A stretch of 64,000 bases of DNA from Bacteroidota bacterium (lineage in GTDB: Bacteria > Bacteroidota > Bacteroidia > Bacteroidales > VadinHA17): contig JADFDS010000042.1 of assembly GCA_018262715.1 (NCBI GenBank), positions 62,001 to 126,000 on the forward strand. Direction: 5' to 3'. The notes below the pieces were generated by a model. It made no database searches. It had not been told where the DNA came from and saw only the letters and a program-made list of their open reading frames with translations. A program made the translations under genes and the position numbers. Of this stretch, positions 7,483 through 64,000 are shown piece after piece; positions within the stretch are counted from its first letter, which is position 1, and each line of letters starts with the position of its first letter.

Positions 7483-7512
7483 AAAATGATCCGCCTGCCG
7501 GCGGATCATTTT
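7483..7512. terminator. Hairpin, possible bidirectional terminator
   Basis: Perfect 13-bp stem AAAATGATCCGCC / GGCGGATCATTTT with 4-nt loop, 30 bp after the 7453 stop. Confidence 0.7.
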
Positions 7513-59856: not shown

Positions 59857-59930
59857 AGTCCCATAGCTCAGTTGGTTAGAGCGCTACACTGATAATGTAG
59901 AGGTCCCCAGTTCAACTCTGGGTGGGACTA
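59857..59930 (+). tRNA. tRNA-Ile(GAT)
   Basis: Cloverleaf: AGTCCCA/TGGGACT acceptor, GCTC/GAGC D stem, CTACA-CTGATAA-TGTAG anticodon arm, CCCAG-TTCAACT-CTGGG T arm. Confidence 0.95.
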
Positions 59931-59935
59931 CAGGA

Positions 59936-60003
59936 TTTGAGATTTGCGAATTGCGATTTGAGATTGTTGCTTAACTCGAAAATCGGGAATCGAAAGTCGA
60001 AAA
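59936..60003. repeat. Paired inverted 4x heptamer arrays
   Basis: TTTGAGA-TTTGCGA-ATTGCGA-TTTGAGA (59936-59963) and TCGAAAA-TCGGGAA-TCGAAAG-TCGAAAA (59976-60003), 12-nt spacer. Confidence 0.9.
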
Positions 60004-60010
60004 TAAAATT

Positions 60011-60090
60011 GGGGATTTAGCTCAGTTGGCCAGAGCATCCCGTATCCGCCGGTTGGCGGATCGGGAGGGTCAAGGGTACTGAATCCGGTT
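60011..60090 (+). pseudogene. Degenerate tRNA-Ala copy with palindrome in place of the anticodon arm
   Basis: First 27 nt identical to the intact tRNA-Ala; then TCCCGTATCCGCCGGTTGGCGGATCGGGA; GGGTCAAGGGT shared; T stem and 3' acceptor lost. Confidence 0.88.
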
Positions 60091-60102
60091 CTTTACAAAA
60101 TT

Positions 60103-60176
60103 GGGGATTTAGCTCAGTTGGCCAGAGCACCTGCCTTGCACGCAGGGGGTCAAGGGTTCGACTCCCTTAATCTCCA
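60103..60176 (+). tRNA. tRNA-Ala(TGC)
   Basis: Cloverleaf: GGGGATT/AATCTCC acceptor, CCTGC-CTTGCAC-GCAGG anticodon arm, AAGGG-TTCGACT-CCCTT T arm. Confidence 0.96.
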
Positions 60177-60180
60177 CGGA

Positions 60181-61930: not shown

Positions 61931-61941
61931 AAGTTCTTTGA
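61931..61941 (+). promoter_or_regulatory. boxA-like element in rrn leader (AAGTTCTTTGA)
   Basis: Identical 11-mer recurs in the 16S-23S spacer at 63747-63757. Confidence 0.6.
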
Positions 61942-62061
61942 ATTAATGATGAAGTAGTAGCACACAGGCGGGAGAGATCTCGCCAAAAACCTAGCGATTT
62001 CGATTGAGTTTTTGAAGAGACCGGATTGATCTTCAAAGGATATTTAAGAAATAAATATTAC

Positions 62062-63588
<1,527 letters not shown>

Positions 63589-63647
63589 GGAGATGATCAA
63601 ATCGGTAAAATCAATTCCGTCTGTGACTACTTCATTATAAGATATTG

Positions 63648-63729
63648 GTCCAAAAGTCCAAAAGTCTAAAGTCCAAAGGTCAGTTAAATGACCTTCAGAC
63701 CTTCAGACCTTCAGACCTTCAGACCTTTT
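63648..63729. repeat. Paired inverted octamer arrays in the 16S-23S spacer
   Basis: GTCCAAAA-GTCCAAAA-GTCTAAA-GTCCAAAG (63648-63678) and GACCTTCA x4 (63690-63721) + GACCTTTT. Confidence 0.92.
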
Positions 63730-63745
63730 CGCCGCAAGGCGAAAA
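63726..63745. other. Stable hairpin with GCAA tetraloop in rRNA spacer
   Basis: TTTTCGCC-GCAA-GGCGAAAA, just before the boxA-like element. Confidence 0.7.
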
Positions 63746-63746
63746 T

Positions 63747-63757
63747 AAGTTCTTTGA
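63747..63757 (+). promoter_or_regulatory. boxA-like element in 16S-23S spacer (AAGTTCTTTGA)
   Basis: Same 11-mer as in the 16S leader. Confidence 0.6.
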
Positions 63758-63830
63758 CATGCTGGTTTTTGAGAAGATATCAAATCTGATATATTTTTAA
63801 ATTGTAAGATTAATAAGAGATTACTCAAGA

Positions 63831-64000
63831 AAGTAATTAAGAGCAAATGGCGGATGCCTTGGCTCTCAGAGGCGATGAAGGACGTGACAAGCTGCGAAAA
63901 GCTGCGGGGAGGAGCAAATATCCGTTATATCCGCAGGTATCCGAATGGGGCAACCCTCCAGGTTGAAGACCTGGAATCCCGATGCAAGTCGGGAAGCGAA
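63831..64000 (+). rRNA. 23S ribosomal RNA, 5' part (truncated by window end)
   Basis: CGGATGCCTTGGCTCTCAGAGGCGATGAAGGACGTG; mature 5' end approximate. Confidence 0.95.

Follow-up and report, generated by a model that had tools for sequence, protein, structure and literature searches.

A palindrome-broken tRNA-Ala copy and its putative relation to GIY-YIG-linked elements at bacterial tRNA genes

The tRNA-Ala locus

We analyzed a 64,000-nucleotide stretch of DNA (the window; contig JADFDS010000042.1, positions 62,001 to 126,000) from a Bacteroidota bacterium of the VadinHA17 lineage, in which an intact tRNA-Ala(TGC) gene is preceded by a broken copy of itself that carries a palindrome in place of the anticodon arm. 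The components of the locus are as follows.

60005-60037, forward strand: 33-nt direct repeat, copy 1, made up of a 6-nt leader and tRNA-Ala positions 1-26 (acceptor 5' strand and D arm); exact repeat
60011-60077, forward strand: broken tRNA-Ala copy, with the 5' half, the palindrome, and the variable loop and T-stem 5' strand (GGGTCAAGGG); from comparison with 60103-60177
60038-60066, forward strand: 29-nt palindrome TCCCG-T-ATCCGCC-GGTT-GGCGGAT-CGGGA in place of the anticodon arm; from the sequence, with the palindrome family also found elsewhere in the genome
60038-60129 (equivalently 60005-60096), forward strand: 92-bp unit, present in the window and absent in the close relative G001; from genome comparison
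60078-60102, forward strand: leader ACTGAATCCGGTTCTTTACAAAATT, which separates the broken copy from the real tRNA-Ala and is absent from relatives without the unit; from comparison with G001
60097-60129, forward strand: 33-nt direct repeat, copy 2; exact repeat
60103-60177, forward strand: intact tRNA-Ala(TGC); ARAGORN and Rfam RF00005

The 33-nt sequence AAAATTGGGGATTTAGCTCAGTTGGCCAGAGCA is identical in its two copies, and the match stops at both ends of the repeat. The original prediction, which was made from the sequence alone, had described this duplication, a tRNA-Ala copy with a palindrome instead of the anticodon arm, and a palindrome stem at the exact former place of the anticodon stem; all three descriptions are borne out by our comparison with the intact gene. 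The palindrome is followed by GGGTCAAGGGT (60067-60077) and then by ACTGAATCCGGTTCTTTAC, after which the second repeat begins. As the anticodon arm (5-bp stem, 7-nt loop) is replaced and neither the T loop nor the acceptor 3' strand is left, the copy falls outside the definition of a tRNA, and it was called as a tRNA by neither ARAGORN nor Rfam. The RNA adopts a rod-like fold with z = -3.7, although this pairing is partly inherent in tRNA-Ala itself. The 92-bp unit contains no open reading frame (ORF).

Occupied and empty sites within the genus

BLAST of 40 related genomes, combined with direct reading, shows that 11 further members of the genus have hairpin-bearing pseudo-tRNA-Ala copies on the upstream or the downstream side of the tRNA (G001, G004 and similar labels denote genomes among these relatives, and G000 denotes the source genome of the window, which is 98.4% complete). 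Upstream copies are found in G004, G017, G018, G013, G007, G005, G021, G011, G002 and G010, with three in tandem in G011 and at least two in G010. The broken copy of G001 is downstream of the tRNA, and some genomes of the genus have copies on both sides. The hairpin interiors differ among these genomes (ACACTTGTGT, ACTTGAAAGT, ACTTACAGT or ATCCGCC..GGCGGAT), with the TCCCG/CGGGA base remaining constant. The flanks in G001 are 99% identical to those in the window (BLAST query 1-188 and 248-351), and exactly the 92-bp upstream unit is missing. The tRNA-Ala unit is therefore subject to presence/absence variation within the genus.

Occupied and empty alleles of one site are also seen at tRNA-Val(GAC). 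The locus is empty in G001 and G018, where the tRNA is simply bordered by its flanks, and in G021 it reads flank, broken copy, intact tRNA, GIY-YIG ORF, palindrome-broken remnant, flank. Two upstream copies are present in each of G011 and G010 and at least three in G007, and the intact tRNA of G003 is followed by a decayed ORF with an internal stop. In the source genome, the corresponding locus (L293, contig C8:52518-53112) has flanks like those of G001 and holds four tandem broken copies with a 79-nt period plus a downstream remnant; it contains no intact tRNA and no ORF, and a second tRNA-Val copy lies on contig C3. The loss of the intact tRNA at L293 reflects either real recombination or a collapsed assembly.

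Recurrence beside other tRNA genes

The search pattern GAGCNTCCCG-N5-30-CGGGANGGT, which does not impose the inner pairs of the hairpin, matches six times in the source genome (reversed control, 0) and is present in 16 of the 22 genus genomes. At the level of the order, 64 of 395 genomes spanning 52 genera contain it, compared with one of 395 for the reversed pattern, and a permuted-stem control was matched in 3 of 149 genomes, never in a tRNA-like context (loops of 8-30 only). Among 85,488 species genomes scanned, the pattern yields at least 120 loci; the matches listed are mostly from Bacteroidota, and also from Ignavibacteria, Armatimonadota, Acidobacteriota, Chloroflexota and others, and include chance matches in high-GC genomes. 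The reversed and permuted-stem controls rule out a chance hairpin. An unusual real tRNA with an odd anticodon is likewise ruled out, given loop lengths of 5-19 and the lack of a tRNA call for the window copy.

More than 100 loci have the hairpin at the same tRNA position on the same TCCCG/CGGGA base, and the interior varies by compensating pairs. Across 122 distinct interiors, pairing at the first, second and third inner positions is seen in 115/122, 102/121 and 69/97, respectively, where the maxima after shuffling are 104, 75 and 57. Nearby tRNAs, where present, share the strand of the broken copy and typically lie 17-60 nt downstream of it or 23-330 nt upstream, with larger distances inside arrays. 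The neighboring tRNAs are of many kinds (Ala, Val, Met, Lys, Thr, Arg, Pro, Gly and others), the copies are often tandem, and the units measure 70-470 bp. Array size varies from 0 to 9, with patchy presence within one genus. The same architecture occurs at tRNA-Val in the cultured isolates Marinirhabdus gelatinilytica DSM 101478 and Flavipsychrobacter stenotrophus.

Association with a small GIY-YIG nuclease

In the longer units, the small ORF between the intact tRNA and the broken copy encodes a GIY-YIG domain (PF01541, E 1.8e-17). Such an ORF is present at 44 of 90 tRNA- or GIY-linked hairpin loci, a set selected by the pattern. In units with the ORF upstream of the broken copy, the distance from the end of the domain to the copy is 2-46 nt, and the ORF can extend into the tRNA remnant. 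The linkage also holds from the other direction: starting from PF01541 in the 40 relatives and disregarding hairpins, we collected 52 small GIY-YIG genes, 34 of which (about 33 without L274, which is probably spurious) have a tRNA or hairpin copy on the same strand no more than 600 nt away. UvrC, which has the same Pfam domain and served as a control, has no tRNA in the examined flanks of any of its 13 loci.

The well-preserved tRNA remnants beside GIY-YIG ORFs are all interrupted by a palindrome. The palindrome is located in the anticodon arm of Asn, Met, Lys, Val and Thr remnants, in the T loop of Gly, Leu and Arg and also of some Thr and Val remnants, and in the D loop or at its edge in Pro and Arg remnants, for which the ORF is upstream of the intact tRNA. 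The latter arrangement is seen at L257, L223, L258, L260 and L251, where the GIY-YIG gene lies upstream of an intact tRNA-Pro or tRNA-Arg and is itself preceded by a tRNA 5' part with the palindrome in or near the D loop. At a tRNA-Val unit in M. gelatinilytica (L078, 5216-5640), a second GIY-YIG copy begins directly after the broken copy. The source genome has one such ORF, 251 nt after tRNA-Met, and two broken copies lie upstream of that tRNA-Met. The 85-aa product is closest in sequence to the UPF0213 structures PDB 1YWL (E 1.3e-8) and 1ZG2 (E 6.7e-7). The tRNA-linked genes encode bare domains of about 80-95 aa and are mostly found in cellular genomes.

In a tree of 52 tRNA-adjacent GIY-YIG domains, built on few columns and with many open forks, the nucleases group by tRNA species. 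The tRNA label changes 21 times on the tree, as compared to a mean of 36 and a minimum of 32 in 300 shuffles (51 rows). One mis-called pseudo-tRNA was omitted from this test, and one label was changed to Arg instead of Glu, since the unit in question stands before tRNA-Arg as a tandem copy. The genome of origin does not cluster on the tree (10 changes versus a shuffled mean of 8.9; 13 rows). In pairs with computable synonymous divergence (dS), which excludes most pairs as saturated, dS is 0.30-1.01 and nonsynonymous divergence (dN) is 0.03-0.18; therefore, the tRNA-linked nucleases are under purifying selection.

Dispersed palindromes

Related palindromes, which the original prediction had proposed to look for across the genome, were found: the core TCCGCC-N4-GGCGGA occurs in 35 copies in the source genome (reversed control, 0), and full 29-nt palindromes with the same bulged base also occur outside tRNAs. 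Another core copy is located in the window.

7489-7506, no strand assigned: dispersed palindrome core copy ATCCGCCTGCCGGCGGAT, without tRNA context; from sequence search

At L001-L003, the dispersed palindromes often form a composite with another hairpin (CTCCGAC..GGAG), located within arrays of short intergenic repeats.

The original prediction had called the palindrome similar to a repetitive extragenic palindrome (REP) and pointed to a REP-associated tyrosine transposase (RAYT, TnpA_REP). No match to Y1_Tnp (PF01797) was detected in the source genome at its 98.4% completeness. Across the genus, the palindrome count does not track the RAYT count: Y1_Tnp is lacking from G015, G021 and G011, whose palindromes number 29-34, and G018 and G006 have 3-4 palindromes and one Y1_Tnp. 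RAYT is thereby ruled out as the mover. REPs carry a GTAG or CGTC tag at one end (PMC3733652), and no such tag is present at the palindrome ends, where the flanks read GAGCA|TCCCG and CGGGA|GGGTC. As a description of a dispersed short palindrome, the term is fair; membership in the REP/RAYT system is not supported because Y1_Tnp, matching counts across the genus and the tag are all lacking.

Genomic neighborhood

The upstream neighbor of the tRNA-Ala locus is another tRNA gene.

59857-59931, forward strand: intact tRNA-Ile(GAT); ARAGORN and Rfam RF00005

A tRNA-Ile/tRNA-Ala pair usually sits in the 16S-23S spacer. Here, the pair lies about 1.9 kb upstream of the 16S gene (59857-60177 versus 62060-64000), and the 240-nt 16S-23S spacer (63587-63826) is without tRNA. 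The spacer from tRNA-Ile to tRNA-Ala (59932-60004) is composed of degenerate TTTGCGATTTGCGA-like repeats, which differ greatly from one relative to another and are also found at other places in the genome. The part of the leader at 60088-60102, between the broken and the real tRNA-Ala, contains GTTCTTTAC, which is similar to GTTCTTTGA in the rRNA leader at 61932-61941. It is possible that the two represent an antitermination boxA, for which the resemblance is weak.

Proposed mechanism and alternatives

On balance, we judge that the 92-bp unit in the window is probably an ORF-less member, either non-autonomous or relic, of a tRNA-resident family of GIY-YIG-linked mobile elements of the homing type. 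The family is apparently undescribed. The original prediction had regarded the structure as a possible scar of palindrome insertion followed by tandem repair. The term undersells it, given that the structure recurs with varied hairpins at many different tRNA species, occupies a site in some relatives that is empty in others, and is linked to GIY-YIG genes.

A complete unit would consist of one intact tRNA gene that is kept, a small free-standing GIY-YIG gene, and a further tRNA copy that is partial and interrupted by a palindrome. The nuclease would cut an unoccupied tRNA gene, and repair would then copy the unit into it, i.e. homing. The palindrome might render the duplicated arm both non-functional and uncuttable. 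Subsequent break-induced events or unequal exchange could generate tandem arrays and ORF-less copies such as the window unit. More tentatively, and short of calling it probable, we suppose that GIY-YIG homing units parasitize single tRNA genes across Bacteroidota and other phyla with one tRNA species per lineage, preserving host fitness by keeping the intact tRNA and marking the duplicate with a palindrome, which may act as a structural recognition or protection signal for the nuclease. Such units would represent a new minimal class of mobile elements, and the dispersed palindromes could be by-products of the same nuclease.

Several points weigh against a homing-type family. The main difficulty is the retention of an intact tRNA, possibly open to cleavage, next to the nuclease gene: the copies are broken by palindromes, yet the intact tRNA is usually alongside. 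Therefore, simple homing immunity, in which the insertion destroys the target, would hold only if the target spanned a junction. The nuclease is a bare catalytic domain with no recognized DNA-binding domain, and direct repeats would permit loss of the unit as easily as gain. Because the tRNA-Ala(TGC) locus yielded no GIY-YIG gene in any genus genome examined, the window unit appears to be joined to the family only by shared anatomy. Both cleavage by the nuclease and movement of the unit are what we infer from sequence comparison.

The same observations might originate from two unrelated processes, in which tandem tRNA duplication supplies dispensable copies, a REP-like palindrome invades this neutral DNA, and the GIY-YIG genes are bystanders. 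The dispersal of the palindrome family outside tRNAs, the direct repeats flanking the unit and the commonness of arrays without an ORF would all be expected from such a scenario. However, it does not readily explain why the hairpin occupies a fixed tRNA position with a constant base and a covarying interior in more than 100 loci, why every well-preserved remnant beside a GIY-YIG ORF has a palindrome, or why the GIY-YIG lineages are tRNA-specific, and no transposase was identified for the palindrome, RAYT being absent. We consider this coincidence unlikely. A functional RNA is another candidate: the copies could yield stable anticodon-less tRNA-like RNAs or leader hairpins, serving as decoys for tRNA-cutting toxins or as leader, processing or antitermination elements of the tRNA transcript. 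Compensating changes do preserve the hairpin, nearly all copies share the strand of the tRNA and sit close to it, the acceptor, D and T arms are kept in some copies (e.g. L230 and L217), and the leader motif GTTCTTTAC resembles that of the rRNA at 61932. This role seems quite doubtful, however, in view of the patchiness within the genus, array sizes from 0 to 9, a palindrome position that differs by tRNA species, and the lost T arm of the window copy.

An origin as the attachment-site remnant of a tyrosine-recombinase element, i.e. a phage or an integrative and conjugative element (ICE) once integrated in the anticodon arm, is very improbable. Known cases are kilobases long with a simple partial copy, whereas the units here are 70-470 bp, often tandem, and contain a replacing palindrome; the recurrent linked gene is a GIY-YIG nuclease, and no integrase was noted between the copies, although integrases were not specifically searched for. 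Finally, the original prediction had named a single clean tRNA-Ala, misassembled, as a finding that would overturn it, and direct repeats in assemblies of the metagenome-assembled type could favor such an artefact. Since independent genomes have the unit with different hairpins, assembly error is excluded for the unit, and cultured isolates show the same architecture at tRNA-Val; we therefore give the artefact practically no credence.

If the homing-type family is real, a tiny mobile element sits inside essential RNA genes of many bacterial genomes. It would account for small GIY-YIG genes of unknown role next to tRNAs, as well as for anticodon-less tRNA pseudogenes, which annotation tools may list as odd tRNAs. 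It would also open to experiment the question of how such a nuclease element can attack an essential gene while its host survives.

Comparison with known systems

The UPF0213 small GIY-YIG proteins (PDB 1YWL and 1ZG2) are sequence relatives of the 85-aa nuclease; tRNA linkage is not a known feature of UPF0213 genes. Rickettsia palindromic elements are longer and inserted in protein genes, whereas the palindromes here lie in tRNA copies that have an intact twin. The likeness is that those elements, too, are palindromes inserted in genes (PMC3733652). The REP/RAYT (TnpA_REP) system and REPINs share with our palindromes their short length, large number and dispersal, but here there is no GTAG/CGTC tag and no RAYT in the source genome, and the palindromes have a fixed site in tRNA copies and a GIY-YIG linkage. 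Phages and ICEs that integrate into tRNA genes are similarly flanked by one intact and one partial tRNA copy; the units described here differ in their size of 70-470 bp, the palindrome in the partial copy, copies on either side, tandem arrays and a recurrent nuclease gene.

A study of tRNA gene fragments ascribed partial copies to phage/ICE integration or CRISPR spacers (PMC9897764), and a phylogenomic study of GIY-YIG proteins mentions tRNA three times, none of which concerns linkage to tRNA genes (PMC1564403). We found no description of the combination of tRNA, GIY-YIG and palindrome in the open-licence literature, and its novelty is hence provisional.

The nearest precedent that we found is SegB of phages T4/T6, a free-standing GIY-YIG homing endonuclease of the tRNA region (PMC13096335). 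It cuts inside tRNA genes at the motif RAWTSGAAC, the complement of a T-loop-like sequence, and causes tandem segmental amplification of the tRNA segment; hairpins, palindromes and pseudogenes are not mentioned in that paper (PMC13096335). The systems are alike in having a GIY-YIG gene beside tRNA genes. SegB, however, is a phage protein, whereas the nucleases here are bare domains, encoded mostly by cellular genomes, that fall into tRNA-specific lineages and are accompanied by tRNA copies broken by palindromes. If the proposed mechanism is correct, these units would be the cellular counterpart to the SegB-driven tRNA amplification in phages.
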